Positions 47,454 through 64,000 of a stretch of 64,000 nt of DNA are shown piece by piece. Location of the stretch: NCBI RefSeq assembly GCF_900302475.1, contig NZ_OMOQ01000001.1:2170001-2234000 (forward strand), written 5' to 3'. The translations under genes and the position numbers were made by a program. Position 1 is the first letter of the stretch. Each line of letters begins with the position of its first letter. Under the pieces are notes generated by a model, which ran no database searches, was not told the DNA's origin, and saw nothing but the letters and a program-made list of their open reading frames with translations. Source of the DNA: Defluviimonas aquaemixtae. Its GTDB lineage: Bacteria; Pseudomonadota; Alphaproteobacteria; Rhodobacterales; Rhodobacteraceae.

Positions 47454-47614
47454 CCGATTTCCGAATGCTCCGCCAGTACGTCTTTGCCTCAAAAGCGCGC
47501 GGAAACGTGAGCGGGTGGGTAGGGAGAACCGGAATGCCAATCCCGCGTCATCCGGGCTATACTTTCCTCAAGCGATCCGTCCGCACCGTATCAGGGAGGG
47601 GTGGTGTCGATCCC

Positions 47615-49123
47615 ATGCGAAAGTACCGTCTTTCCGGCCTTATCCTTGCCGTGTTGGTCCTCGCCGTCCAGTCCCACGCGCGCGCGGCGGACCGGCTGGG
47701 CCTGGTCGTGGGCATGGCAGCTTACGAACATATCGCGCCCCTGAAGAACACGGTCAACGACGCCCGGGCGATAGCGGACACGTTGGAGCGGATCGGCTTC
47801 AACGTGGTGACGCTGACCGACGCGACGCAGGACGAACTTCTGTCCACGCTGGCAGAGTTCTCGTTCCGCGCCGAGACGGCCGATCTGGCGCTCATCTACT
47901 TCGCGGGGCACGGCGTCGAGGTGCAGGGCGAGAACTTCCTTATCCCGGTCGATGCCGCCGTCAGGTCGAACCGCGACGTGGCGGCGCGGTCTGTGTCACT
48001 GAAGGACCTGCTCGGCGCCGTCGACAGGGCGCGCAAGATGCGGATCGTCATCCTCGACAGCTGCCGCGACAACCCATTCGGCGACGTAATCGCGCCGGCG
48101 TCCGACCCCGCCAAGGGCGCCGGCGTGGGGCGCGGGGGTGGCGGTCTTGCCGCCCCCGCGCCTGATCGCGGCACGCTCGTCGCCTTCGCGGCGCGCGACG
48201 GCGAGATCGCGCTCGACGGCGACGGAGACAATAGCCCCTTCGCGCTTGCGCTCGCCGACACGCTGGCTCGGCCCGGGCTGGAGATCAGCCTGATGTTCCG
48301 CCAGGTACGGGATGCCGTCCTCGCCGCGACCGGCAACCGGCAGGAGCCGCATACTTACGGCTCGCTGCCTGGAGCGCCCTTCTACCTGGCCGGCGCGCCC
48401 GAACTGCGCGGGGAGATCGACGTCGCCGACCGCCGCGTCGCCTGGTCGCGTATCCGCCCCGATCAGGCCAGTCAGCTCACTAGACTGGCCAGCGAAGGCG
48501 ACACGCGGTCGATGCTTGGCGTAGCCTATATGCGGCTCGACCCCGAGGGCCGCGACTACGCGCCAAGCGATGCCGCGAAATGGCTCGAGGAGGCGGCCGG
48601 GGCCGGCTCGGCGGAGGCACAGTTCGAGCTTGCGAAGCTCTACGAAACCGGGCTCGGGGTCGACGCCGACCCAGCCCGGGCGCTGGCGCTGCACCAGGAG
48701 GCCGCGGCGCAGGGCTTCGCGGACGCGATCAACGATCTCGGTTTCCTGCAATATCACGGCGGTCTGGGCCTGCCGCGCAACGTGGACAAGGCGCTGGAAC
48801 ATTTCGAACGCGCCGCCGACCTGCGCCATCCGCAGGCGATGTTCAACTTCGCCGCGCTGATCGATGACGGGCTGGTTCCCGGCAAGGGATCGGACGAGGC
48901 GGCTCGCTATCTCTACGGAGCGCTCAGGGCAGGCAGTGCCGAGGTGTTCGCGCTGCTGACCGAAAGGCCGACCATGTTCAAGGACGCGACGCGGCGCGCC
49001 CTTCAGGCCGAACTCAGGCGGCACGAATTCTACAAAGGCGCGATCGATGGCGATTTCGGGCCGGGGACGCAGCGCAGCATCCGCACCGCCTACGGCCTTG
49101 GCGGGACGGAGGCAGGGCCATGA
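47615..49123 (+). CDS. Exported caspase-fold (C14) protein with SEL1 repeats
   Basis: 502 aa. A signal peptide (YRLSGLILAVLVLAVQSHARA) precedes a C14 domain (about 25-260) with His99 in IYFAGHGVEV and Cys150 in VILDSCRDNPF, the intact catalytic dyad. NSPFALALADTLARPGLEISLMFRQVRDAVLAATGNRQEPHTYGSLPG closes the domain. SEL1-type repeats follow (AKWLEEAAGAGSAEAQFELAKLYETGLGV.., DALNDLGFLQYHGG..), then a short peptidoglycan-binding-like end (YKGAIDGDFGPGTQRSI). It overlaps the next gene by 4 bases. A periplasmic role beside the T6SS genes is inferred. Confidence 0.85.
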   Translation: MRKYRLSGLILAVLVLAVQSHARAADRLGLVVGMAAYEHIAPLKNTVNDARAIADTLERIGFNVVTLTDATQDELLSTLAEFSFRAETADLALIYFAGHGVEVQGENFLIPVDAAVRSNRDVAARSVSLKDLLGAVDRARKMRIVILDSCRDNPFGDVIAPASDPAKGAGVGRGGGGLAAPAPDRGTLVAFAARDGEIALDGDGDNSPFALALADTLARPGLEISLMFRQVRDAVLAATGNRQEPHTYGSLPGAPFYLAGAPELRGEIDVADRRVAWSRIRPDQASQLTRLASEGDTRSMLGVAYMRLDPEGRDYAPSDAAKWLEEAAGAGSAEAQFELAKLYETGLGVDADPARALALHQEAAAQGFADAINDLGFLQYHGGLGLPRNVDKALEHFERAADLRHPQAMFNFAALIDDGLVPGKGSDEAARYLYGALRAGSAEVFALLTERPTMFKDATRRALQAELRRHEFYKGAIDGDFGPGTQRSIRTAYGLGGTEAGP

Positions 49124-49983: not shown

Positions 49984-50292
49984 ATGTGGAAGAGGGGTCG
50001 TTTTGTCTGTGTGATGCTGATTACTGGCGCCTGCGTACCAGAACTTTACCAGGGCCAGGCAGAGGTCCAGCCCGAACGGATCCCGGCACCCGCCGCGACC
50101 CCCGCACGTGCTGCGCCCGCGCCAGCGGCGCCTGCACCAGCAGCGACGGCTGTGCCGACGCCCAGTCCGACGCCTACGCCGCCTCCCACCTATGCCGCTT
50201 CGGGTGGTGGCGGCTCGGGCGGCGGCGGCGCGAGCGGTGGCGGCTCGGGCGGTGGCGGCTCGGGCGGCGGTAGCGGAGGGGGGTGGAATTGA
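49984..50292 (+). CDS. Small lipoprotein with Pro/Ala linker and Gly/Ser tail
   Basis: 102 aa. The lipobox LITGAC places the lipidated Cys at about residue 17. After a short polar part comes an Ala/Pro-rich stretch (about 33-70), then a Gly-Ser tail with repeats of GGGGS and GGGS up to the last residues GGGWN. Nothing resembles a folded domain. It may be a flexible tether or a cell-envelope spacer. It overlaps the second caspase gene by 10 bases, so the two are co-expressed. Confidence 0.65.
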   Translation: MWKRGRFVCVMLITGACVPELYQGQAEVQPERIPAPAATPARAAPAPAAPAPAATAVPTPSPTPTPPPTYAASGGGGSGGGGASGGGSGGGGSGGGSGGGWN

Positions 50293-52721
50293 AACCTCCT
50301 ACATGCAGGTCCGATGGCCGCCCGGCGGATCTTCGACTGCTCGGCGGACTTACGTTGGCGGCACTGCTAACGGCGGGTAGCGCCTTCGCGCAATCCGCCG
50401 ACACACCGGTCACGCTGCAACGACCGGCCGAGGTGCTGGGTCTTCCGGGGCTGAGCATCGACCTGACCAAGCCCGCGACGCAGCGCTATGCGCTCGTGAT
50501 CGGCAACGGTGACTACAGCTACGTGCCGTCGCTGCCGAATGCGGTCGCCGATGCCCGGCTGATCGCCGGCGTCCTCAAACGGGCCGGCTATGTCGTCCAG
50601 GAATACGAGAACCTCGACCGACGCGGCTTCGAAGCCGCGCTGAGGCGGATGATCGCCGATACCGACAAGGGGTCGGAGATCGTGATCTACTATGCCGGAC
50701 ACGGCGTCCAGATCGGCAATTCCAACCGGCTTATCCCGGTCGATGCCGAGATCGACACGATCTATGATCTGCCATTCGAATCCGTCTCGCTGTCGAGCCT
50801 CCTGTCGATTGCGGGCGCGCGGTCACGGTCGCTCGTCGTCATCCTCGACAGTTGCCGCGACAATCCCTTTCCCGACCGCGACGCGATCGTCGGGCTCGAC
50901 GCAATTCCGCAGGAACTGAGGACCGGATTCGCGGCGCAGGATTCTCCAGTGAACTCGCTCATCGTCTTCTCGACTTCGCCGGGCGCGGTGGCGCTGGACG
51001 GTACCGGGGCGAACAGCCCGTTCACCGAGGCGCTGAACCAGGCGATCACGGCCCAGCCTGACGCGCCGATGGACGAGATCCTGCGCGATGTCCGCCGCCG
51101 CGTCTATGTCGCGACCGGAGCGCGTCAAGTGCCGTGGGAAAGCTCGTCACTGGTCGAGCGGGTCAGCTTTGATTCCGACCCGTCGGTCGCGGGGTTCCAT
51201 AACGCCGCCGCGGCAATAGAAGGTGAGGCAACTGCCGGGGCCGCGCCCGAGCCGCTGACCATCAGCCTGCCGCTGGATCGCAAGGTCGAGGTGGGCGCGG
51301 CTCTGCGGAACACCGCGCCCGGAACGCTCGAAGACGTCGTGGTGACGCGGCCACCGAGCCTTGGCCGGCTCGAACTGCGAGCGGGCGGGCAGACGCGCGG
51401 GCTGATCCCGCTGACGCGGTTTGCCGAGGGCGTCGACGACCTGATCTATGCCAACAGCCGGCCAGAGCTTTCAGCGCTGCAGATGCCCAATCCGCTCATC
51501 AGGGATGAATTCGAGGTCACCGCGAACGGCACTGCGCAGACCGTGCAGCTGACGCTGACCGTCGATCCGTGCGATTTCGAGGCAGGCGACCATCTCGACC
51601 CCGAAGGGGTTGGCGTCGCACGGTATCCAAACGAGATCGAAGTCGCCGCAGCGCTGAGCGCCTGCGAGGCGGCTGTCGCGCGGGAGCCGACGAATGGCCG
51701 TTTCTATTATCAGTTGGGCCGCGTGTACCTCGCATTGCGCGATCTAGACGCGGCGGAGGCGAGCTTCGACCGCGCCCGCGATTTTGACCACACGCGGGCC
51801 TGGCACGCGCTCGGCATGCTGGAGATAGCTCGCCAGCAGGAAACCGCCGGGGCTGAGCGGCTGCCCGCCCCCGAAACCGCGCTGGCGCTTCTGGCAATGG
51901 GCGTCGACCGGGGCGATCCCTATGCCTATCACTCGCTTGGGCTGCAGCTTCTAGAAATGTCGGTCGATCCCTCGCTCAAGCGGCAGGGTTTCGACCTCCT
52001 GTCGCGCTCGCTCGAAGTGGGGCACACTTTTTCGATGAACGCGCTCGGTTTCTACTTCCTCCAGGAAAACACCGATCACTACGAGCCCGAGCGCGGCCTG
52101 CGCTACATTCGCGAAAGCGCCGAGCGCGATGACATCTACGGGTACGACAACATGGGCTGGATCGCGCTCAACGGCGCGGGCGGCACTACCCGCGACCCGG
52201 GGGCGGCGCTGGAGTGGTTCCGCAAGGCGTCCGACGGCGGCCATCCGCGCGCGCCGACGAGCATCGGGCGGATGTATTTCAATGGCGATGTCGGTGGTCA
52301 ACCTGACTTCGCTGAGGCGGTAAAGTGGTACGATGTCGGGCTGAGCAGGGGCGATGCCTGGGGCGGCGCGAACGGCGCCTGGGTCATCGCCAACCATCAG
52401 CCAGCGGGCTACGGATCGGGTCAGGCCGCGGTTCGGGCCGCCAAGGCGGCGACGCTTCGCAACTCCGAGGCGGTAGCGGCAGCGGAGGAGCTTCTGACCA
52501 CTCTGCCCGCCCGCGAGCTAGACGCGGGCGCGCAGGCGCTGATGCTCGAACTCGGCGCGGAGGTGACAGCCGACGGCGCCTTTGGGCCGGCAAGCGAGGC
52601 GGCGCTGACCGACGTCGCCCAGCGCTTCGGCACCCAAATTTCATCAGACCCCATGGAGCGCTTGAAGGCGCTGGCGCGGATATACTGGACGACGAATCCA
52701 TTCCGGGTGGATCTCTACTGA
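50283..52721 (+). CDS. Exported caspase-fold (C14) protein with long SEL1/TPR repeat region
   Basis: 812 aa from GTG. A signal-like segment (LRLLGGLTLAALLTAGSAFAQ) is followed by C14 at about 66-300: ALVIGNGDYSYVPSLPNAVADARLIAGVLKRAGY, His140 in IYYAGHGVQI and Cys191 in VILDSCRDNPF, then NSPFTEALNQAIT..MDEILRDVRRRVYVATGARQVPWESSSL. A beta-type region (about 320-440) precedes SEL1/TPR repeats (about 455-730). It resembles the first caspase protein in domain order but is larger. It lies upstream of the convergent ompA-like gene at the T6SS edge. Confidence 0.85.
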   Translation: MELKPPTCRSDGRPADLRLLGGLTLAALLTAGSAFAQSADTPVTLQRPAEVLGLPGLSIDLTKPATQRYALVIGNGDYSYVPSLPNAVADARLIAGVLKRAGYVVQEYENLDRRGFEAALRRMIADTDKGSEIVIYYAGHGVQIGNSNRLIPVDAEIDTIYDLPFESVSLSSLLSIAGARSRSLVVILDSCRDNPFPDRDAIVGLDAIPQELRTGFAAQDSPVNSLIVFSTSPGAVALDGTGANSPFTEALNQAITAQPDAPMDEILRDVRRRVYVATGARQVPWESSSLVERVSFDSDPSVAGFHNAAAAIEGEATAGAAPEPLTISLPLDRKVEVGAALRNTAPGTLEDVVVTRPPSLGRLELRAGGQTRGLIPLTRFAEGVDDLIYANSRPELSALQMPNPLIRDEFEVTANGTAQTVQLTLTVDPCDFEAGDHLDPEGVGVARYPNEIEVAAALSACEAAVAREPTNGRFYYQLGRVYLALRDLDAAEASFDRARDFDHTRAWHALGMLEIARQQETAGAERLPAPETALALLAMGVDRGDPYAYHSLGLQLLEMSVDPSLKRQGFDLLSRSLEVGHTFSMNALGFYFLQENTDHYEPERGLRYIRESAERDDIYGYDNMGWIALNGAGGTTRDPGAALEWFRKASDGGHPRAPTSIGRMYFNGDVGGQPDFAEAVKWYDVGLSRGDAWGGANGAWVIANHQPAGYGSGQAAVRAAKAATLRNSEAVAAAEELLTTLPARELDAGAQALMLELGAEVTADGAFGPASEAALTDVAQRFGTQISSDPMERLKALARIYWTTNPFRVDLY

Positions 52722-52746: not shown

Positions 52747-53469
52747 TCAGCTCAGCGCCTGGAACTCCACGCGCCGGTTCTCGGCGGCCTTCGGGTCGAC
52801 CTCGTCGGCGAGGAACCGCTCGCCCAGACCGACCGCTTCGAGCCGTCCAGGCGCGATGCCGCAGTCGCGGACGAGGTAGCGCTGCACTTCCTCTGCGCGC
52901 AGCTGCGAAAGGCGTTCATTGTATTCGAACGAGCCCGAGGCGTCGGTATGCCCCACGATGCGGAAGAGTTCGATGTCGCTGCCACTCATCACGGTGCAGA
53001 GCTGCTCGAGCTGCGGCAACTGGTCGGAAGAGAGCGCTGCGGAATCGAAGGCAAAACGGATATGGACGTTGATCTGAAGCTCAGGGGCGAGACTTCCGAA
53101 GACAACCTGTTGGGGCGCGGCCGTTTCCTGCGTGCCAAGGCCCTGATCCCGCCCGGTTTGTGCAGGCGAAAGGGGCGATAGCGCGCCCACGGTCACGCCA
53201 CCCGTGTCGGTCGCGGACACGCCTGCGCTCGCCTCGCCGGCATCGGGCTGCGACAGGCCGGGGCTTTCGGTCGCGACAGCGACATCGTCGACTGTGATCA
53301 GGGTCAGTCCGCGCGTACGGCCCGTCGTGCTTTCGCGCGCTGCGCGGAATGCGTCGCGCTGCTTGTTGAAAAGCTCCAGTAACTGGGCATCCGTAAGTTC
53401 CTGCGCGCAGGCCGGAGCGACCATGGCGGCGGACAGGAAAGCGGTCACCAGAACCGGAATGTATCGCAT
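52747..53469 (-). CDS. Exported OmpA-domain protein
   Basis: 240 aa. A signal peptide (YIPVLVTAFLSAAMVAPACAQ) and a variable linker with Ala/Ser/Gly (about 60-120) precede an OmpA C-terminal domain (about 130-240): IRFAFDSAALSSDQLPQLEQL, IVGHTDASGSFEYNERLSQLRAEEVQRYLV and ENRRVEF, the peptidoglycan-binding signature. In many T6SS this domain is part of TssL; here it is separate. AAGGTGG supports ATG 53469. It is divergent from the phosphatase gene. Confidence 0.88.
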   Translation of the reverse strand: MRYIPVLVTAFLSAAMVAPACAQELTDAQLLELFNKQRDAFRAARESTTGRTRGLTLITVDDVAVATESPGLSQPDAGEASAGVSATDTGGVTVGALSPLSPAQTGRDQGLGTQETAAPQQVVFGSLAPELQINVHIRFAFDSAALSSDQLPQLEQLCTVMSGSDIELFRIVGHTDASGSFEYNERLSQLRAEEVQRYLVRDCGIAPGRLEAVGLGERFLADEVDPKAAENRRVEFQALS

Positions 53470-53504
53470 GACATCCACCTTGAGGGTGCATAGGATCGCA
53501 AAAA

Positions 53505-53610: not shown

Positions 53611-54366
53611 ATGAGAGGTGCGACGACCGTCGTCCCCCTGCCGTCGTCACGTCGACCCGCGGCGCATGGCGCGGGCATGACGCATCGGGGTTGCCTGCGC
53701 ACCACGAACGAGGACGCAATCCTGATCGACCCGACCGGCCGGCTCTGGGCCGTGGCCGACGGAATGGGGGGGTACGGCAACGGCGGTCTTGCTTCAGGCA
53801 TCGTGATTGACAGCCTCGAGATCATTCAGGACGACGAGGACGCCGACACCGCGCTGCGCTTTCGCCTGGAAGAGGCCAATGACGTGATCCGCGCCCGCGC
53901 CGAAAGCGATGGGCTCGGTCCGATGGGCGCCACCGTGGTCGCGCTCATCATCGCAGATGGCACGGCGCATGTGGCCTGGGCGGGCGACAGCCGGCTCTAT
54001 CTCGCGCGGGACGGCTCACTAAAGCTGATTACCCGCGATCATTCGGTCGTGCAGGACCTTGTCGAACGCGGCGAAATCGGCGCCGACATGGCTGAGCATC
54101 ACCCCGAGTCCCACATCGTCACGCGCGCGGTGGGCGGAGCGGAGGTTCTCGAGGTCGATGAGGTGCAGGTGCAACTCTCGGAGGGCGACCGGCTGCTTCT
54201 ATGTTCCGACGGGCTACCGCGCTGCCTGGATGACGGGGCGATCGCGGACGTCCTAGGCGCTGAACATTCGCCCGAGGCGGCAAGCGCCAAGCTGGTCCGC
54301 GCGGCGCTCGATCTCGGTGCGCCCGACAATGTCTCGGTCATCGTGATTGACGTCCGGAAGGTCTGA
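53611..54366 (+). CDS. pppA: PPM/PP2C-type Ser/Thr phosphatase (PppA-like, T6SS)
   Basis: 251 aa, one PP2C domain: GMTHRGCLRTTNEDAILIDPTGRLWAVADGMGGYGNGGLAS (metal-binding DGMGG), MGATVVALIIADGTAHVAWAGDSRLYLARDG, ITRDHSVVQDLV, LLLCSDGL and PDNVSVIVIDV. GGAG 7-10 bases before ATG. In T6SS loci PppA opposes the kinase PpkA in controlling Fha phosphorylation and assembly; no kinase is in view here. The next gene starts 3 bases after the stop. Confidence 0.88.
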   Translation: MRGATTVVPLPSSRRPAAHGAGMTHRGCLRTTNEDAILIDPTGRLWAVADGMGGYGNGGLASGIVIDSLEIIQDDEDADTALRFRLEEANDVIRARAESDGLGPMGATVVALIIADGTAHVAWAGDSRLYLARDGSLKLITRDHSVVQDLVERGEIGADMAEHHPESHIVTRAVGGAEVLEVDEVQVQLSEGDRLLLCSDGLPRCLDDGAIADVLGAEHSPEAASAKLVRAALDLGAPDNVSVIVIDVRKV

Positions 54367-54369
54367 GGG

Positions 54370-55245
54370 TTGCAGGGCGGTGGTCTGATCGGTCCGGTCA
54401 TCGTAGCGATCGGTGTCGTAGCGGCGGCGATTGCTTTTGCCCTGGTGACGACACTTCTGGAAACCGCCGACAGCGGGACCGAGTTGCGCCTCGACCGGCT
54501 GCAGGAGGAGGTTCAGGCCGCATCGGGCGAGCGCGCGCGGCTGGAAGCCGAGGTCAGGCGCCTGACGAGCGACCTGGCGCGGTTGCGCGAGGATATGAGC
54601 CTCTTGGCCAATCGCGCGCCGGCTGCGAGCGCCCAGCCGCCAGCCGCAGCGGGCGGAACGACTGAACTGCCCGATGAGGATTTTGAGAATCCGCTGCCCA
54701 CCGAGGAGATGACCGAAATCATGCTCCTGGCCAAGACGCGCTTCAACAAGGCCATCACCCAGCCGCGCAACCGGACGATGATGGAGATCCTAGGCCCGCC
54801 GCGCGACAGCTATTCGACCGACTGCCAGCCTGTGACGAACGCCCGGCTAAAGGCGCTTATGGAGACCCGCGAGATCGGGCCGATCCGGGTCACCATGCTG
54901 CGACCGGCGCTTGAAAGCCTCGAACGCATCATGACCCGGCTGCAGAAGAGCGACCCCGATATCTACTCCGCCGTCGGCACGGCGGGTGCCATCTGCGCGC
55001 GGTTCATCCGGGGTTCGACGACGTCGGTCTCGAACCATTCCTGGGGTACGGCGATCGATTTGAAGCTCGAGGGCCAGCTCGACCCCTTCGCCGATGGCGG
55101 CACGCAATTCGGGCTTTTGATTCTTGCCGAGTACTTCAACGAGGAAGGATGGTTCTGGGGCGCGACCTATAGCCGGGAGGATTCGATGCATTTCGAGGTC
55201 GGGGAAGAGACGCTGCGCGCCTGGAAGAACGAAGGCAGGCTCTAA
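54370..55245 (+). CDS. Membrane-anchored M15-type D-Ala-D-Ala peptidase-like protein
   Basis: 291 aa from TTG. One N-terminal membrane helix (IGPVIVAIGVVAAAIAFALVTTLL) is followed by a coiled coil (about 38-80: LDRLQEEVQAASGERARLEAEVRRLTSDLARLREDMSLLANR), an Ala/Pro linker and a C-terminal M15_4-like domain. SNHSWGTAIDLKLEG supplies His and Asp, and REDSMHFEVG the last His, of the zinc triad. It probably cleaves cell-wall peptides in the periplasm, where it may open a path for the T6SS (inference). It lies between pppA and the TssL-TssM chimera, within 5 bases of each. Confidence 0.8.
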   Translation: MQGGGLIGPVIVAIGVVAAAIAFALVTTLLETADSGTELRLDRLQEEVQAASGERARLEAEVRRLTSDLARLREDMSLLANRAPAASAQPPAAAGGTTELPDEDFENPLPTEEMTEIMLLAKTRFNKAITQPRNRTMMEILGPPRDSYSTDCQPVTNARLKALMETREIGPIRVTMLRPALESLERIMTRLQKSDPDIYSAVGTAGAICARFIRGSTTSVSNHSWGTAIDLKLEGQLDPFADGGTQFGLLILAEYFNEEGWFWGATYSREDSMHFEVGEETLRAWKNEGRL

Positions 55246-55249
55246 ACGC

Positions 55250-57745
55250 ATGGCCGGGCGTGATGGCAAGTCTGGCAAGCCGACGACAGGGCGCGGAGGG
55301 CCGGCAGCCAGCGCGGCCTCGCCCGAGCCCTACGAGAGCCGCGCCCGGCCGGTTCTGGACTTCGCGGCCGGGCTCGCGACAGAGGCGCGGCCCGATGCGG
55401 CGCGGCAGGTCGAGCGCGCCGCAATCCTCTTGGACCGGTTCAGCGATGCGCTCAGGCGGGCGGGCGTCGGGGCGTCGACGATACCGCCTGCGCGATACGC
55501 GCTGGCTTTGATCGTCGATCAGCGGGCCCGGTCAAACCGCCGCCTCGACATCCGGACATGGTCGGCAGCCGCGCACAGGCACCTCTTCGACGGGCGAGAC
55601 CTGTCGGTTGCTCGGCTCGAAGAGTTCATCCGGCGGGCCGAGGCTGCAGGGCCGGACTTTGACGCGGTCCGCGCGTTCCTTGGGACCTGCCTCGCGCGGC
55701 TGGAGGACAAGCGGCGGCATTTCGACCGCTCCACCGGGCCGAACTGGACCGGGATCGCTCTGGTCTTGATCGGAGGCTTCATGCTCGCCGTCGCCGGATG
55801 GGCGGCCTATGTCGAATGGCGCTATCATCGCGACTTGGCGCAAGCCTTCGCGTCCGAGGCGCTTGAGATTGGGCTTGACCGGCAGGGCGAGGTTCCCGAC
55901 CTCGCGGGTCGCCTCGACCGGCTCGACGCGGCGGCCGGGCGCGTGGAGACGCAGGCGGAGAGGGCGCCGCTTTCGCTGTTCGCGGGCGCCTTGGGCTTCG
56001 ACGCTGCGGCGCGCGCGTGGGAAAGCTACGACGACGCGCTGGCGCGCCACTTGCCGGGGGTGCTCGCCCGGGCGCTCGATACAGCGATCGCGACCGAGGG
56101 CGAAAACGTCGCGCTATACGACGACCTGCGCGCATGGCGGGTTCTGTCGGGGCAGGACGATTGGTCGCCCGCTTATCTCGCCGGGTGGTCCGCCGACCGC
56201 GCGGACGAGGGGCTGGGCCTTGAGGGGCTTTCACCGCACGTGGCCCGCCTGGCTCGGCCGTCAAGACCCCTGCCCCCGCCCGATCCCGAGCTTCTCGACC
56301 AGGCGCGCGACTTCGCGGCACAGGCGGGCGAGGCCGAGCGCGCCTTTCTGGAGCTGCGCCGGTCCACTTCCGTCGCTGCGCTGCCCGGCTGGCGCGCCTC
56401 CGACGCGGTGCCGGGGATAGACCAACTCCTCCTCCGCCGCTCGGGCCTGCCGATGAGCCGACCGATCCCGGGGCTTTACACCGCCGGGGGCTGGGCGCTC
56501 GCCCGCGACCGCGAGGCGGGGCTTGCCGTCCAGGGCGCCCGCGATGCGGCCGTGCGGATCTTCGATGCGGAGCTTCCAGCCGAGATCGATGCCCCGGACC
56601 GGGTGATGACGCTTCTGCAACGCGCCACGCTTGCCCAATGGAGGACCTATGTCGCCGATCTGAGAGTCCGGCCCTTCTCGGACCCCGATAACGCGGTCTT
56701 CATTTCGGGGCGGCTCGCGCTATCGCCCTCGCCGCTCGAAGCGTTTCTGCGGGCGGTGTGGAACGAGGCAGGCGGCACCGACCGCCAGCGTCCCCATGCG
56801 CTGCAACTGTCGGTCGCGACCGAGTTCGGGCCAATGATCCAGTATGTCGAGCAGGGCCGGATGCGCGAGATTTCGGCACTTTTCGCCGCGCTCAACGTGG
56901 CGCTTGGCGCGATGGACCGCGATGAGGAGGCGGGGCTTCAGCGGCTGATGACTATCCAGGACCGCGCGGCCTCCATCGCCGCGCTGCGGCAAGCGCCGCT
57001 TGTCGTCGTGCAAATCGTGGAGGATGTGCTTGCCCAGACCAGCGCGGCGCATGCCGATCTGATGACCAACCCGCTCACGCGCGCCTGGCAGTCCGAAGTT
57101 CTGCCCTTGTGCCAGGAGGCGGTCGAGGGTCGCTATCCGTTCGCCGACGGTCCTGACGCCGATCTTGCTGCGGTCTCTCGGCTGCTTGGCCCTGGCGGCG
57201 CCGTCGAGCGTTATTTCCGCGCCCGCGCGGAACCTTACGTCGACACGAATGCCGCTCTATGGCGCTGGAAGCCCGAGGCGCGCTTTGCCGGGCTCGCGCC
57301 CGAAAGCGCCGCCTTCTTCCAGCGCGCGCGTGCAATCAGCGAGGGTCTGTTCGCGCCGGACGGGCGCTTGGGCACGGCGATGGCGCTGTCGGCGCTGGCA
57401 GAGCGCGGGCGCGCGTTTATCGCGGTCGGCGGCGCGGGCGGGCCGGTCGAGACGCGCACCGATAGTCTCAGCCTCGACTGGCCGGGCGCGGCGGCCGAAA
57501 GCGGCGTGCAGGTGACCTTCGAAACGCCCGAAGGCGCGGCCGAAATGGCCGGACCCGGGCCATGGGGATTGTTCCGCCTTCTCGATCCGGTTCGCCTGCG
57601 CGAACGCGACGAGGGGCGCCGCTACCTTGTCGATCTGCGCGCGGGCGGGGGGCGGCTGTTTCTCGAGATCGGGTTCGACAGGGCCGAGAATCCGCTGTCG
57701 CGGCGCCGGCTACTCGACGGCTTCACCTGCCCACCGGTTCTGTAG
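55250..57745 (+). CDS. TssL(DotU)-TssM(periplasmic region) chimeric T6SS protein
   Basis: 831 aa. Residues about 30-160 resemble a DotU/TssL cytoplasmic domain (ARPVLDFAAGLATEARPD..ILLDRFSDALRRAGVGASTIPPARYALALIVDQRARSNRRLDIRTWSAAAHRHLFDGRDLSVARLEEFIRRAE). One membrane helix follows at about 167-187. The rest aligns by eye with the periplasmic part of TssM/IcmF: PLSLFAGALGFDAAARAWESYDDALARHLPGVLARAL, NPLTRAWQSEVLPLCQEAVEGRYPF, LGPGGAVERYFRARAEPYVDTNAALWRWKPEARFAGLAPESAAFFQRARAISEGLF and WGLFRLLDPVRL. The same blocks occur in order in the tssM gene at the right edge. No P-loop domain is present. Confidence 0.75.
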   Translation: MAGRDGKSGKPTTGRGGPAASAASPEPYESRARPVLDFAAGLATEARPDAARQVERAAILLDRFSDALRRAGVGASTIPPARYALALIVDQRARSNRRLDIRTWSAAAHRHLFDGRDLSVARLEEFIRRAEAAGPDFDAVRAFLGTCLARLEDKRRHFDRSTGPNWTGIALVLIGGFMLAVAGWAAYVEWRYHRDLAQAFASEALEIGLDRQGEVPDLAGRLDRLDAAAGRVETQAERAPLSLFAGALGFDAAARAWESYDDALARHLPGVLARALDTAIATEGENVALYDDLRAWRVLSGQDDWSPAYLAGWSADRADEGLGLEGLSPHVARLARPSRPLPPPDPELLDQARDFAAQAGEAERAFLELRRSTSVAALPGWRASDAVPGIDQLLLRRSGLPMSRPIPGLYTAGGWALARDREAGLAVQGARDAAVRIFDAELPAEIDAPDRVMTLLQRATLAQWRTYVADLRVRPFSDPDNAVFISGRLALSPSPLEAFLRAVWNEAGGTDRQRPHALQLSVATEFGPMIQYVEQGRMREISALFAALNVALGAMDRDEEAGLQRLMTIQDRAASIAALRQAPLVVVQIVEDVLAQTSAAHADLMTNPLTRAWQSEVLPLCQEAVEGRYPFADGPDADLAAVSRLLGPGGAVERYFRARAEPYVDTNAALWRWKPEARFAGLAPESAAFFQRARAISEGLFAPDGRLGTAMALSALAERGRAFIAVGGAGGPVETRTDSLSLDWPGAAAESGVQVTFETPEGAAEMAGPGPWGLFRLLDPVRLRERDEGRRYLVDLRAGGGRLFLEIGFDRAENPLSRRRLLDGFTCPPVL

Positions 57746-57848
57746 GGAATTCCCGTCTGCGGGATCGCGCCGACTTCGTCTATACTGGCCCGAGTTTGCG
57801 AGAGATTTGAGCCGGTTATTTCCGATACAAGCAGAAAGGAAGCCGATC

Positions 57849-60152
57849 GTGCCAACGGACCGCGAAATCACCGTTTCCGTCCCCGCCTTCGGCGACAAGG
57901 TCGCGTTTGCCCGGATGGAGGGACATGACGAGATCAGCCAGACCTTCCGCTACGCGCTTTCCGTGGTTAGCGACGACCTAGACCTAAAGGCCGCCGACGT
58001 GCTCGGGACACAGGCGACGATTACCGTGACCGGCGACCCGGAGCGACATTTCAATGGGTTCGTCGCCGAGTTTGCGCTGACCGACATCCGCGACGAGAAG
58101 GCGCACTACCGCCTTACGCTCGTGCCCTGGCTGTGGTTCCTGTCACTCAAGGCAGACAACCGGATCTTTCAGAACCAAAGCGTGGTGGACATCGTCGAAG
58201 CGGTGTTCGGCGACTATCCCGAGGCGCAGGTCGAGAAGCGCCTGAAATCCTCTTACCCGCCGCGCGACTATTGTGTGCAGTACGGGGAAAGCGACCTCAC
58301 CTTCGTGCAGCGGCTTCTCGAACATGAAGGCATGTTCTACTTCTTCGAGCATGCCGACGGCGAGCACAGACTGATACTGGCCGACGACAACACGACGATG
58401 AAACCCGCACCGCGCGCCAAGACCCTGTCTTACGAATCCGACAGCCGGATCAGCTTCAAGGAGGGTGATTTCATCACCGCATGGCTGCCGGCGAGCGCGG
58501 TCAGAAGTGGAAAATACGCCCATACCGACTATGACTTCCTGAAACCGTCCTCGGACCTCATGGCGAAGGCCTCTTCTCCCCTTGGTCACAAACAGGACGC
58601 AGCCGAGCAATATCACTATCCCGGCAACTACATCGAGCATGGGCGCGGCGACGACCTGTCAGCGATCCGGCTCGAGGAGTTGCAGTCACCGCACCGGCGC
58701 ATCGCAGCGGCGGGCACGGCGCGGCCGCTCTGGTCGGGGCGGAGCTTTACGCTGGAGTTGTTCCCGCGCGAGGAGGAGAACGACAGCTACATCGTCCTGC
58801 GCGCCGACTACGAGCTTTGGGACGCGCAGTACCGGACCGGGCAGGCCCCGGGCGATCAGGGCTATGCTGTGAGCCTGCGCCTCGCGCCCGCGAGCCTGCC
58901 GTACCGGCCAGAGCGTTTGACGCCGAAACCGGTGATGAAGGGGCCGCAGACCGCCGTCGTTGTGGGGCCGGGCGGCGAGGAGATCTTCACAGACGAGTAT
59001 GCCCGCGTGAAAGTGCAGTTCCACTGGGACCGGCTGGGCGGTCGCGACGAGAATACTACCTGCTTCATCCGGGTCAGCCAGACGTGGGCAGGCGCGGGCT
59101 GGGGCTTCATCCAGATCCCGCGCATCGGGCAGGAGGTGATCGTCGATTTCCTCGAAGGCGACCCCGACCAGCCGATCATCACGGGGCGGGTTTACAATGC
59201 CGAACAGATGCCGCCCTACGGGCTGCCCGGCAACGCGACACAATCAGGCTGGAAGTCGAATTCCTCGCCCGGCGGCGGCGGCTGGAACGAGTTGAGGTTC
59301 GAGGACAAGAAGGGCTCGGAAGAGGTCTATTTCCAAGCGGAAAAAGATCACAATGAGCTGGTCAAGAACAACGAGGCGCGCACAATAGGCAATGACTTTG
59401 CCGAAGACGTGGGCCACGACGCTCAGCAGTCGGTGGGTAACGACCGGACAGAAAGCGTCGGGAACGACAAGTCGACGAGCGTAGGCAACAACCGCACCGT
59501 TTCCATCGGCGTCGACGATACCGAAACGGTCGGCTCCAACCGGTCGCTTACCGTGGGGTCGAACGAGACAATCGGGATCGGCGCCAACTCCACGGAAACG
59601 ATCGGGCAGAACCACTCGCAATCGGTAGGGATCAACCAGTCGATCTCGGTCACCGCCGCCCGGATGGTCACGGTGGGCGCGACCGAGACGAAGGCGGTCG
59701 GGCTCGCGCAGACGATTGGCGTCGGCAACAAGCGGAGCGTCACCGTGGGCGCGGCGCAGAGTCACAATATCGTCGCCGACGACAGCTGGTCGGTCGGGTC
59801 GAACCAGACGATCCAGATCGCATCGAACCAGTCCCTGAGCGTGGGCGGCGGCCAGACGAACAAGATCGGCAAGGACCAGGCGTCCGAGATCGGCGGCAGC
59901 CAGGCCACCAAGGTCGGCAAGGACGAGGCGCTGGAGGTGGCGGCCAAGATGGGCGTGAAGGTCGGGGCAAGCTATGCGCTCGATGTCGCCGACGAAATCG
60001 CGATCAAGTGCGGTTCATCGGCGATTGTGATGAAGAGCGACGGAACGATCACGATCGAAGGCAAGGACATCACCATCAAGGGGTCGGGCAAGATCAACGT
60101 CAAGGCGGGCGGCGAGATAACTATGAAAGGCTCGAAGATCAACCAGAACTAG
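57849..60152 (+). CDS. vgrG: T6SS spike protein VgrG (TssI)
   Basis: 767 aa from GTG with AAGGA upstream. The gp27-like domain spans about 1-380 (DDLDLKAADVLGTQATITV.., YCVQYGESDLTFVQRLLEHEGMFYFFEHADGEHRLILADD). The gp5 OB-fold follows (YARVKVQFHWDRLGGRDENTTCFIRVSQTWAGAGWGFIQIPRIGQEVIVDFLEGDPDQPIITGRVYN), then a long beta-helix needle of VGxNxT/S-type repeats (about 515-700) and the normal tip (TIEGKDITIKGSGKINVKAGGEITMKGSKI). There is no C-terminal effector extension. It overlaps tagF tail to tail by 4 bases. Confidence 0.95.
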   Translation: MPTDREITVSVPAFGDKVAFARMEGHDEISQTFRYALSVVSDDLDLKAADVLGTQATITVTGDPERHFNGFVAEFALTDIRDEKAHYRLTLVPWLWFLSLKADNRIFQNQSVVDIVEAVFGDYPEAQVEKRLKSSYPPRDYCVQYGESDLTFVQRLLEHEGMFYFFEHADGEHRLILADDNTTMKPAPRAKTLSYESDSRISFKEGDFITAWLPASAVRSGKYAHTDYDFLKPSSDLMAKASSPLGHKQDAAEQYHYPGNYIEHGRGDDLSAIRLEELQSPHRRIAAAGTARPLWSGRSFTLELFPREEENDSYIVLRADYELWDAQYRTGQAPGDQGYAVSLRLAPASLPYRPERLTPKPVMKGPQTAVVVGPGGEEIFTDEYARVKVQFHWDRLGGRDENTTCFIRVSQTWAGAGWGFIQIPRIGQEVIVDFLEGDPDQPIITGRVYNAEQMPPYGLPGNATQSGWKSNSSPGGGGWNELRFEDKKGSEEVYFQAEKDHNELVKNNEARTIGNDFAEDVGHDAQQSVGNDRTESVGNDKSTSVGNNRTVSIGVDDTETVGSNRSLTVGSNETIGIGANSTETIGQNHSQSVGINQSISVTAARMVTVGATETKAVGLAQTIGVGNKRSVTVGAAQSHNIVADDSWSVGSNQTIQIASNQSLSVGGGQTNKIGKDQASEIGGSQATKVGKDEALEVAAKMGVKVGASYALDVADEIAIKCGSSAIVMKSDGTITIEGKDITIKGSGKINVKAGGEITMKGSKINQN

Positions 60153-60676
60153 GGCCGATGTCCGATCAGGCGGTCGAGCAGCGGGCCAGGATCGTCGGGC
60201 GCGCAGGCTTCCGGCGCAACTTCCTTCGTCCAGACGAGCATCGCCTCCTCTTCCCGTCCCCCCTGCCCAGGAGGATCTATCGCGCCAAGGGCGGCCCAGA
60301 GGCGTTCCGCGTCCCCGCCGTCCTCGAGGACGGAGCGTGCCGACGCCAGCGCGGCATCGCACCACTTGTCGAGCTTGTCCGGCGTTCCCAGATTGTCCCC
60401 GATGAGGAGAAGGCTGAGGGGAAAGGCCCGCCCCGCGCTGTCGGCGCCGGCAAGCACCACGCCCGCCACCACCCGCCCGCCCGAGGCGAGCCGGAAGCGC
60501 AGGCCGTCTTCCGGCCACTGCCTGACGTCGCGCAAGATGGGCGCGAGGTGGCGCGTCACCCAGGCGTCCCAGCGCTGACGGAAGACGTCCGGCAGACCGC
60601 GTGAAACGAAGTCGCCCGTGGACGGGATCTTGCCGAAAAAGCCCGGCGCGGGCGGGCTCAGAAGCTCTCCGGACAC
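60149..60676 (-). CDS. tagF: T6SS-associated protein TagF
   Basis: About 175 aa from a GTG inside the 3' end of tssM. PGFFGKIPSTGDFVSRGLPDVFRQRWDAWVTRHLAPIL is the TagF signature, followed by LRFRLASGGRVVAGVVLAGADSAGRAFPLSLLLIGD. TagF is a post-translational repressor of T6SS assembly acting on Fha. The frame stays open further upstream to 60835, within tssM, but alignment with the family begins near this GTG. It overlaps tssM by 19 bases, so translation is coupled. Confidence 0.88.
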   Translation of the reverse strand: MSGELLSPPAPGFFGKIPSTGDFVSRGLPDVFRQRWDAWVTRHLAPILRDVRQWPEDGLRFRLASGGRVVAGVVLAGADSAGRAFPLSLLLIGDNLGTPDKLDKWCDAALASARSVLEDGGDAERLWAALGAIDPPGQGGREEEAMLVWTKEVAPEACAPDDPGPLLDRLIGHRP

Positions 60677-63600
60677 CGGAAGTTCCCGAACATCGACAGG
60701 TCGAAGGGGTTCTCGACAGAGGCAGCAAGAAGCTCGTAGTCCGCCGAGAATCCGCCGAGCGACAGGTTCAGGCGGAACTTCTCGGGCAGTTCCGTCGGCC
60801 TCAGCCGCCCCCGGATCATCCTGAGCCAAGCCCATGAGCCGGTCTCTGACGAGATCGCCTCAGCCGTGCCGTCGACGGGCGTGAAGGAGAGCGAGATGAG
60901 GTTGGTGCCGTCCGGTCCCGGCCACGTCATCGGCATCGGCCTCGCGGCAGCGTTGAAGAAGACGAGCTGCTGGCCGTCAACGTTTAGCGTCACCCGGCTC
61001 GCATTGGCCGAGAGATCCTTGGGCTCGAGCGTGAAGGCCATGACCGGCCCGGCGCCCCCGGGAAAGAGGCCGTCACGGATCGAGCGCGCCTTCTCGAATG
61101 GCTGAAGCCGTGCGGCGTCGAGCCCGAGATCCGCGCGCCACGTCCAGGGCCGGACCGTGGTGTCGACGTAAGGAAGCAAGAGCTCGTTCGTGAAGGCGTC
61201 GATCAACCCGCCCGGCCCGAACAGGCGCTGGAAGTCGGCGACGTTCACGTCGATCCGGCTGGTCTGGTCGAATGGGTAGCGTGCCGCCGTGGCCGAGAGG
61301 CAGAACGGCAGCACGTCGGCTCGCCAGCGGGCGTTCAGCTGGGCGACGACCGCTTCGCGCGTGACGCCGATGGTGTCGGCAGCAAGCCCGGCCATCCAGT
61401 CGTTGACCGGCGACGGCAGGGTCCGGGCCACGTTGGCGACCTGCCCCGTGAGTTCCGGCAGCCCGCCGCGCGCGAGCAGCGCCGCCTCGGGATCAGGGCT
61501 CGCGGCCACGGTCTGCAATTCGTTCGCCAGCGCGCCGAGCGCGAGTTCGGCGTCGCCGATCAGGGGCGGCGCGCCGTCGACCTCTTCGATCATCGCCTTG
61601 AAGTCGACGAAATGCGCGGCGATCTCGGCGCCCGGAACCGGCGCGGCCTCGCCGTCCCCTCCGGAAGTCTTGGCGAACTTCGCGCCCTTCTTGGCGAGCT
61701 TGCCGACCTTGCCGAGCCGCTTCGCGACCTTGCTTATGACACCTTTCGGCACCTCCGTCCCACCCTCGGCCGCCTCCTCCTCGACTCGCGTGAGGTCGGT
61801 TTCCGCCACGACCGCCCTGAGCAGACGCTTGAGCGTGGAATCGGCGCTGGCGAGATCCTTCAGATTGGCCGTCGCGGTCTGCAGATCGGTGATCGGCGCG
61901 AGCCGCACGTCTTGAAGGAACCCGTCCCACTGGGCGATGAAATCGTCCCCGTAGAGCTTCACGATATCAGTTTCGAGCGTGGCGACCGAGGCGTCGGAGC
62001 TTTCGGCGCAGCCGCCGGCGAACACCGCCCGGTCGAGCGCGGCCTGGGCGGCAACGTCGGGAATGAGCGGCAGGACGATGTTGTGAAATCCCTCGTAGGT
62101 GAAGGCGCCGGGCAGGCCGACCCGCAGGGTCTTTTCCGACAGCCGCGTCAGCACGCGTGTGGCGTTCGGTCCAGCCTTTTCGGCCGGGATCCAGTCGGCG
62201 AGCCCCATGACAGTCGGGTCCTGCCGGAGCGCCCCGTAGGCCCGTACCGCGAGCGGGATCGTGCAGATCGACTGGAGCGCGGTCGCGACCAGTTCCGGGT
62301 CGTGCGCGATCTTGGTCTCTTCGCCTGCGAGCCGGTCGAGCGCGGCCATCTGGTGGTCGAACGCGGCCTCGGTCGGGAACACTTCAATCGCGGCATGTTC
62401 AGGAAGGTTGTTTTGCCACCAGGAGGTCAGGAACTCGCGGTCATAAGGCGCAAGACCTGTCACCATGTAATAGGCCTTGAGCGCGCCGAGCAGGAATTCG
62501 GGGTCGCGCGCCTCGCGCCACATCGTCGCCTCGAGAAGTGCCACCATGCGCGGCTCGAGCACGTTGCGGAGCGTGCGGTCGTAGGCGATCCGGTGGGCTC
62601 GGGCGAGTTCCGGCGCGGCGGTAGGACCAGCAAGTGTCAGAGCGTTGGTCGCGACCTGCGTCTCGGCGGCGGCGGAAATGGTCGCAGCTTCGAGCGCGAG
62701 GTCGAGGTCAAGCGGGTCGGTCGGCGCCTGGCGGGCGGCGACATTGGCGAGCCGGCCCGAGAGATCGGCGATGAGCCGCGCCTGATCGGCGACGCCACCC
62801 GAATAGCGCAGGTAGGAGTAGAGGAAGACAAGCCCCGCCACGACCGTGACCAGCGCGGCACCCGCGAGCGATCCGCGCCAGAGCCATTTCCGCCGTTCTT
62901 CGGCGGCCCGGTCGAAGAGGCCTAGACCGGCCTCGGGGAAGATCACGTCCGAGAGAAGCTCGCGCAGGAAGTACGACCGGGTTTCGCCGTGGGCGCGGCG
63001 GCGGGGCGGCTCGGAGGCGAGGCCAAAGGCCGAGGAGAGTTCACCCACAAGGCGATCGATGGGCGAGCCTTCCTGTGTCGCCGATGTGAAGTAGAAGCCG
63101 CGCAGCCAGGGGCTGTCCTCGTAGCGGCTTTCGCCGAAGACGGTGTCGATAAGCGCCCTGAGCGGCGCCTCGACTCGGGCCATCTGGGCGGGGAAACGGA
63201 AAATGTCGGCACGCTCGGGCAGGCCCGCATCCTCGGCCATCCGGCCCGCAACGCGGTTCTCTAGCCGGCCGAGTAGCGCCTTGGACTCGCGCTCGATCGC
63301 GAGGCCGTCGATGCGGGCGTCGGTGGGCAGGGTCGCGCCCCAGACCTGTTCGCGGGCGCGGGTCGAGAGGTCGGCGAAGAAGGGTTCGAACCCCGGCACA
63401 AGATCGCACTTGGTGATCATTAGGTAGACGGGCAGGTGCAGCCCGAGCCTGTCGCGCAACTCGGAGAGCCGCTTGCGAATCTCGCGGCCATGGGCCTGAA
63501 GCGGCGCCTCGGGCCCCAGAAGCTCGCGCAGAGAAAGCGCGACGATGACGCCGTTCAGCGCCCGCCGCCCGCGATGCTTCTTAAGCATGTCGAGAAAGCC

Positions 63601-64000
63601 GTTCCATTCGGCTGCATCGACCTCGGGGTCGGAAGCCTGCTGGACATAGCGGCCCGCCGTGTCGACCAGAACCGCCTCGTCGGTGAAGAACCAGTCGCAG
63701 TTGCGCGTTCCGCCAACGCCCTTGATGTCGTCACTTAGGTCGATGGGGAAATGTAAACCTGATTGCTTGAGCGCAGTCGTCTTGCCAGTGCCGGGCGGTC
63801 CGATCATCAGGTACCACGGCATGTCGCGCAGGAACTTCCGGCCGCCAAGCTTTGACCGCTTCATCTGTGAAAGCACCGACTGGAACTTCGTGCTGACCTC
63901 GGCGACGTTTGCCTCGCCTGCCGTGGGTTCGGCCACGGGCTGTGGCTGGGCCAGTTCGGTCACGAACATCTGGTTGCGGCGGGCGGCGCGAATGAGCGCG
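60658..64000 (-). CDS. tssM: T6SS inner-membrane protein TssM (IcmF/VasK), 5' end beyond window
   Basis: At least 1,113 codons are present; the frame is open through base 64000 (reading ALIRAARRNQMFVTEL), so the two N-terminal membrane helices lie outside. Visible parts: the cytoplasmic GTPase-like domain with Walker A GPPGTGKTT and VDTAGRYVQQ, then TKCDLVPGF; a membrane helix (GSLAGAALVTVVAGLVFLYSYLRY); and a long periplasmic region ending in the IcmF C-terminal beta-domain (SLSFTPVDGTAEAISSETGSWAWLRMIRGRLRPTELPEKFRLNLSLGG). A Lys-rich insertion (KVAKRLGKVGKLAKKGAKFAK) is unusual. It forms the trans-envelope complex with TssL and TssJ. Confidence 0.95.
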   Translation of the reverse strand, partial: ALIRAARRNQMFVTELAQPQPVAEPTAGEANVAEVSTKFQSVLSQMKRSKLGGRKFLRDMPWYLMIGPPGTGKTTALKQSGLHFPIDLSDDIKGVGGTRNCDWFFTDEAVLVDTAGRYVQQASDPEVDAAEWNGFLDMLKKHRGRRALNGVIVALSLRELLGPEAPLQAHGREIRKRLSELRDRLGLHLPVYLMITKCDLVPGFEPFFADLSTRAREQVWGATLPTDARIDGLAIERESKALLGRLENRVAGRMAEDAGLPERADIFRFPAQMARVEAPLRALIDTVFGESRYEDSPWLRGFYFTSATQEGSPIDRLVGELSSAFGLASEPPRRRAHGETRSYFLRELLSDVIFPEAGLGLFDRAAEERRKWLWRGSLAGAALVTVVAGLVFLYSYLRYSGGVADQARLIADLSGRLANVAARQAPTDPLDLDLALEAATISAAAETQVATNALTLAGPTAAPELARAHRIAYDRTLRNVLEPRMVALLEATMWREARDPEFLLGALKAYYMVTGLAPYDREFLTSWWQNNLPEHAAIEVFPTEAAFDHQMAALDRLAGEETKIAHDPELVATALQSICTIPLAVRAYGALRQDPTVMGLADWIPAEKAGPNATRVLTRLSEKTLRVGLPGAFTYEGFHNIVLPLIPDVAAQAALDRAVFAGGCAESSDASVATLETDIVKLYGDDFIAQWDGFLQDVRLAPITDLQTATANLKDLASADSTLKRLLRAVVAETDLTRVEEEAAEGGTEVPKGVISKVAKRLGKVGKLAKKGAKFAKTSGGDGEAAPVPGAEIAAHFVDFKAMIEEVDGAPPLIGDAELALGALANELQTVAASPDPEAALLARGGLPELTGQVANVARTLPSPVNDWMAGLAADTIGVTREAVVAQLNARWRADVLPFCLSATAARYPFDQTSRIDVNVADFQRLFGPGGLIDAFTNELLLPYVDTTVRPWTWRADLGLDAARLQPFEKARSIRDGLFPGGAGPVMAFTLEPKDLSANASRVTLNVDGQQLVFFNAAARPMPMTWPGPDGTNLISLSFTPVDGTAEAISSETGSWAWLRMIRGRLRPTELPEKFRLNLSLGGFSADYELLAASVENPFDLSMFGNFRCPESF

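Follow-up and report, generated by a model that had tools for sequence, protein, structure and literature searches.

The membrane anchor of the type VI secretion system (T6SS) is commonly thought of as being built from three core proteins, the lipoprotein TssJ, TssL and TssM. In EAEC, the complex contains 15 TssJ, 10 TssM and 10 TssL in fivefold symmetry, and the C-terminal domain of TssM stimulates the lytic enzyme MltE (PMC10433429). Binding of TssJ is assigned to residues 931-1129 of TssM (PMC3213119). Related work describes TagX, a membrane-anchored pfam13539 enzyme that Acinetobacter needs for T6SS biogenesis (PMC5061870), and the Agrobacterium TssL protein, in which PpkA-dependent phosphorylation of Thr14 is followed by Fha binding (PMC3953482).

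Here we describe a locus of Defluviimonas aquaemixtae in which pieces of two of these core proteins are joined in one gene. The analysis started from a stretch of 64,000 nucleotides (the window), and coordinates are given on its scale (Table 1).

Table 1. Features of the chimera locus, with positions counted from the first nucleotide of the window
Feature	Position	Strand	Remarks
OmpA-domain periplasmic protein	52747..53478	-	divergent first gene of module
PP2C-type Ser/Thr phosphatase	53611..54366	+	same module
M15 (PF13539) peptidase	54370..55245	+	TagX-like, with N-terminal membrane helix; chimera follows immediately
TssL-TssM chimera	55250..57745	+	single open frame, 831 aa
DotU/TssL cytoplasmic domain	55322..55726	+	residues ~25-159
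Membrane helix	55751..55807	+	residues 168-186, inside predicted helix 166-207
TssM-type periplasmic arm	55871..57742	+	residues ~208-831
Arm C-terminal part	57053..57742	+	residues 602-831; matches EAEC TssM 869-1105
vgrG (tssI)	57738..60152	+	next downstream of chimera; 5' end is that of the analysed frame, not necessarily the start
tagF (PF09867)	60149..60835	-	called start overlaps tssM
Complete tssM	60658..64000	-	continues to 64200 beyond the window
tssL	64203-65594	-	beyond the window; 463 aa: DotU, helix, OmpA

Results

Architecture of the chimera

The gene was confirmed as a TssL-TssM hybrid, in which a DotU domain, a helix common to both halves and a TssM arm follow one another. The original prediction had proposed these parts together with the loss of the GTPase-like part of TssM, and each of them was recovered. 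For the periplasmic region, Pfam searches gave IcmF-related at residues 221-506 (E 5.6e-37), IcmF_C at residues 736-809 (E 7.7e-11) and a weak match to IcmF_helical; an IcmF-related region and a C2-like C-terminal domain, as in TssM, are both present. The part of EAEC TssM matched by the arm's end covers most of the reported TssJ-binding region. Full-length alignments to 6ixh and 6hs7 gave an rmsd of ~19 A because the arms bend, and the confident part is residues 602-831. The arm is also better conserved than the DotU domain, with mean column entropies of 1.36-1.69 in four arm segments versus 1.89.

The DotU-like character of the N-terminal domain is carried by domain, profile and fold evidence together, and the domain has the DotU cytoplasmic fold. 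In the window protein, the PF09850 match is partial and below the cut-off of 27 bits, both in a Pfam search (residues 31-95, 22.1 bits) and in a second comparison (profile positions 5-72 of 205, 25.5 bits); the gathering score was reached in six of the nine chimera genomes of a Rhodobacterales sample. A profile comparison with the TssL family, which had been proposed as a check, gave the domain an hhalign probability of only 38.7% (E 3.2e-4). Neither the NTPase-like domain PF14331 nor a Walker A motif was found in the chimera, and the first two helices of TssM are absent, leaving a single hydropathy segment versus the three membrane helices of TssM. The TIGR03348 score of 231.9 bits lies under the equivalog cut-off of 388.15. 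The chimera also lacks the C-terminal anchor of TssL, either free or extended by a peptidoglycan-binding domain: its helix is internal and followed by the 620-residue arm, and PF00691 was not found in it and occurs instead in the separate divergent gene. A lax hydropathy scan of relatives gave one segment in 41 of 66 proteins and two or more in the other 25; therefore, a single membrane pass is a less certain prediction for the family as a whole than for the window member.

Size, spread and integrity of the family

A protein search, which scored the 7993 candidates sharing most words, returned 112 rows, comprising 110 chimera family members (the window protein included) and two TssM. Most relatives are annotated as 'ImcF-related family protein', and two of them (P0084 and P0106) are shorter than 780 residues. 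Among 35 diverse members, identities range from 40 to 68% and many columns are invariant. A named scan with two peptide patterns kept 80 of 82 loci, found in Rhodobacterales (Rhodobacter, Tabrizicola, Gemmobacter, Paracoccus, Rhodovulum, Ruegeria, Sulfitobacter, Shimia and others) and in Rhizobium, Sinorhizobium and Ensifer. Paracoccus denitrificans DSM 413 (L077), a harmless species used in laboratories, carries a member together with the complete gene module described below, and some chimeras are plasmid-borne, for example on Rhizobium plasmids. With scoring limited to the top two candidates of each genome, two chimeras (that of the window genome and G793) turned up among 398 genomes of the phylum, with none beyond Alphaproteobacteria, and only that of the window genome among 385 genomes of the class; a wider spread beyond Alphaproteobacteria is possible.

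The frame is uninterrupted over at least 780 residues in 70 of the 80 loci, and L016 adds 830 open codons. Two loci (L054 and L071) appear frameshifted, one of them being a low-coverage MAG. An assembly or frameshift artefact is ruled out by the 110-protein family and the 70 uninterrupted frames of the same architecture. The scan list also holds an ordinary TssM (L085) and a MAG fragment (L084); in the latter, a 5-kb 'Paraglaciecola' contig, the chimera C-terminus is in frame with an unrelated protein, and this joint is probably a misassembly or contamination. An apparent fusion of M15 and chimera in L078 was rejected, as the long open frame crosses the M15 gene out of phase with its coding frame.

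In an unrooted tree of 66 chosen rows, made with a quick method and with long branches flagged, a single branch (support 100, stem 1.77) separates all 25 chimera arms from the TssM proteins encoded in the same loci. This separation gives no support to an origin of the chimera by recent local duplication from the neighbouring tssM. Several groupings (window/L006/L069; L026/L052/L073) recur in the chimera and TssM halves of the tree, as expected if both proteins were inherited together.

The surrounding T6SS cluster and its gene order

The chimera starts 4 bases past the M15 stop codon, and the M15 gene starts 3 bases past the PP2C gene; therefore, the three genes probably form one operon. The second complete TssM that the original prediction placed nearby is indeed encoded downstream on the opposite strand. 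Beyond the window, tssM is followed on the minus strand by tssL, tssK, tssJ, fha, tssG, tssF, tssE, hcp, tssC, tssB, tssA and ppkA, and clpV lies after ppkA on the plus strand. We assign these gene names from similarity and gene order; DotU, TssM, TagF, VgrG, TssJ and TssC were checked by domain. A single TssC match in the genome indicates that one T6SS was found, and with a full tssJ/tssL/tssM cluster present, the chimera thus adds to a complete T6SS. That it replaces a missing TssL or TssM is ruled out by the normal genes. A separate tssL had also been suggested as something to look for, and a normal long-form tssL with tssJ was found in the same operon as tssM. The original prediction had named a normal tssL plus tssM pair, together with a dispensable chimera, as the outcome that would speak against it; the pair, one half of this outcome, is therefore present.

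Several neighbouring genes deserve mention in their own right. As called, tagF runs 178 bases into the end of tssM, and its TagF domain begins at residue 65; therefore, the true start is probably further in. Upstream of the module, two proteins combining a caspase domain (PF00656) with Sel1/TPR repeats are encoded at 47465-49123 and 50283-52721. Caspase-like genes lie within 10 kb of the chimera in 31 of 80 loci and, on two annotated plasmids, beside the T6SS; an effector role or participation in a linked response is conceivable. After clpV, at contig positions 2251247-2254349 (81247-84349 on the window scale), follow DUF2169-like, beta-ketoacyl-synthase-like and PAAR-like proteins, a trio also annotated in a Rhizobium lentis cluster, to which annotation the names refer by similarity.

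The order ompA(-), PP2C(+), M15(+), chimera(+) is found in all 74 loci with readable upstream DNA. This constant module, which the original prediction did not mention, is the strongest clue to function. Six of the 80 were dropped: in L039, L053, L066 and L074 the contig begins inside the chimera, and L084 and L085 are the fragment and the TssM mentioned above. In 73 of the 74, fewer than 120 bp separate the matches to M15 and chimera, the exception being L078 with its late-starting match. Where there is enough sequence downstream (77 loci), vgrG comes directly after the chimera in 62; the other 15 are 14 rhizobial loci and L084. Module order is kept in these 14, where vgrG and tssM are not adjacent and clpV, ppkA and tssA-C stand on the other side. 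On a Rhizobium lentis plasmid, tssJ, icmH/tssL and tssM belong to the same cluster as the chimera.

The M15 peptidase

The product of the gene upstream of the chimera matches PF13539 (E 4.6e-12) behind a membrane helix at residues 10-28. S221, H223, D230 and H274 are invariant in 75 of 75 sequences, and we take H223, D230 and H274 to be metal ligands from the family motif. The protein thereby combines the domain, metal-ligand residues and membrane anchor that characterize TagX. Judging from these sequence features, it is likely a cell-wall-cutting enzyme, a TagX-like peptidoglycan endopeptidase.

Co-occurrence in Rhodobacterales

In a sample of 196 Rhodobacterales genomes, TssM and TssL occur in an identical set of 56. 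The chimera is present in nine, leaving 47 T6SS genomes without it. All nine also hold canonical TssL, TssJ and TssM, the last being convergent with the chimera and matched on the other strand at a distance of 2.8-3.0 kb. TssJ was found in 13 genomes, namely these nine and G042, G064, G066 and G153, and a chimera without TssJ was not found among the 196. This distribution (9/9 versus 4/47 other T6SS genomes) gives a Fisher p of 9.4e-8, but the chimera genomes are kin, so the association amounts to one or few events.

Strong-scoring homologues of the M15 enzyme occur in 31 of the 196 genomes (33 if all matches at E<=0.001 are counted), with identities of 56-66% in the chimera genomes other than the window genome and 35-43% in 22 others, 20 of which have a T6SS. 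Hence, the M15 enzyme does not need the chimera. In the 12 of these 20 chimera-free M15 loci that were read, no chimera was found, and ompA adjoins M15 in six. Thus, ompA and M15 accompany T6SS beyond the chimera genomes as well, and the chimera itself has been added in a single TssJ-bearing lineage. The 12 loci (L102-L113) represent a second Rhodobacterales T6SS lineage with ompA and M15 genes, mostly without TssJ, whose TssL tails read [KR]-T-[VI]-[IV]-[RK]-P-N-P.

The N-terminal threonine tail

In 48 of 110 chimera proteins, [RK]TV[ILMV] occurs within the first 70 residues, in 47 of them in the tail and in P0103 inside the domain. Further along the same proteins, it was found in 2 of 989 segments of equal length; as relatives, the proteins do not count as independent cases. 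The canonical TssL of chimera loci starts DPFGL...GRT[RI/RV]RP, and R-T-x-[IV] lies within the first 60 residues in 50 of 53 complete frames; the exceptions are L022 and L046, with over-long called starts, and L085, from a distant system. In the 12 chimera-free loci, TssL has [KR]-T-[VI]-[IV]-[RK]-P. We infer that the R/K-T-V tail of the chimera may be equivalent to the Thr14 region of Agrobacterium TssL. The idea that chimeras generally have a PpkA/Fha tail was rejected, since the threonine motif is absent from the window protein and from 63 of the 110 members.

Discussion

A conserved arm, a fixed M15 partner, the precedents of MltE and TagX and the stoichiometry in EAEC together lead us to interpret the chimera as an accessory component of the TssJLM membrane complex that supplies a further TssJ-competent arm and carries the M15 enzyme to the site of assembly. 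We consider this reading somewhat more probable than its negation. Set against it are the M15 homologues of 20 chimera-free T6SS genomes, the 47 of 56 T6SS genomes in the order that manage without a chimera, the weak DotU match of the window protein and the 25 of 66 relatives with two or more hydropathy segments. By analogy with the core proteins, the DotU domain would face the cytoplasm, a single helix would cross the membrane and the TssM-type arm would span the periplasm. The end of this arm corresponds to the region that binds TssJ in TssM, and the chimera may bind TssJ likewise. It would enter the complex in addition to TssJ, TssL and TssM rather than in their place, and supply extra arms without the NTPase-like domain, so that a stoichiometry different from that of the core, as originally suggested, is possible. 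Coupled to these arms, the M15 enzyme encoded upstream might be recruited or activated and might open the peptidoglycan where the complex is being built.

Ten TssM in fivefold symmetry make two TssM places per unit, which could be shared with a second type of arm. A speculative extension, which we regard as doubtful, is a heteromeric ring in which full TssM and chimera share these two places; the chimera would then tie the endopeptidase to the assembling ring and, in tail-bearing lineages, answer the PpkA/Fha switch.

Retention of binding-type domains without the NTPase-like domain would also suit a competitive regulator, which occupies sites on TssJ and TssL/TssK and keeps the complex inactive until it is displaced, acting with the PP2C phosphatase and TagF. 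The chimera is encoded with this phosphatase and near tagF, and the tail of 47 of the 110 members resembles the TssL region around Thr14 that PpkA phosphorylates (PMC3953482). We nevertheless think such a regulator unlikely: the remaining 63 members and the window protein have no such tail, conservation lies in the periplasmic arm rather than in the cytoplasmic domain, and nothing links the M15 enzyme to that role. This enzyme is central to another alternative, in which the arm activates and places M15 before or beside the machine and never belongs to the finished complex. Adjacency of M15 and chimera in 74 of 74 readable loci fits a dedicated scaffold of this kind, as does the stimulation of MltE by the EAEC TssM C-terminal domain (PMC10433429). 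A scaffold explains neither the retained DotU domain nor the restriction to TssJ-bearing systems, and we rate it as quite unlikely.

Finally, the chimera might be a dispensable, decaying relic of a tssL-tssM duplication. Longer branches in the tree show that its evolution outpaces that of TssM from the same loci, and L054 and L071 of 80 loci, one a low-coverage MAG, appear frameshifted. Set against these are the long open frames (at least 780 residues in 70 of 80 loci, plus the 830 codons of L016), the conservation among 35 diverse members (40-68% identity, with many columns invariant) and the fixed operon position, which make decay very improbable. If the accessory-subunit reading is true, the T6SS anchor of these bacteria includes a conserved fourth protein that is made from pieces of two others and tied to an enzyme that cuts the wall, which would show how an extra arm and peptidoglycan opening are built in.

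Comparison with known systems sets the chimera apart from each of its relatives. Relative to TssM (IcmF, VasK; TIGR03348), it is without the first two membrane helices, PF14331 and Walker A, and it scores below the equivalog cut-off. With TssL/DotU (PF09850) it shares the fold of the cytoplasmic domain and, in many relatives but not in the window protein, a T-containing N-terminal tail; its DotU domain is a short version without a full-length PF09850 match, and where TssL ends at the membrane helix or an OmpA domain, the chimera continues from the helix into the TssM arm. Like TagX of Acinetobacter (PMC5061870), the M15 protein carries PF13539 behind an N-terminal membrane helix and is encoded in a T6SS cluster; it differs in having one predicted helix where TagX has two, and in being always paired with the chimera in the chimera loci read. 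The chimera sequences are already in databases under a generic name, and in the open-licence literature text available we found no description of a TssL-TssM fusion, which may be drawn unnamed in a cluster map. In that literature, its nearest published relative is TagP of Pseudomonas putida, likewise encoded in a T6SS cluster as an additional derivative of TssM (PMC5363822, PMC10433429). The exchange in TagP is the opposite one: there the C-terminal periplasmic part is swapped for PF00691, whereas the chimera keeps that part and swaps the cytoplasmic part.
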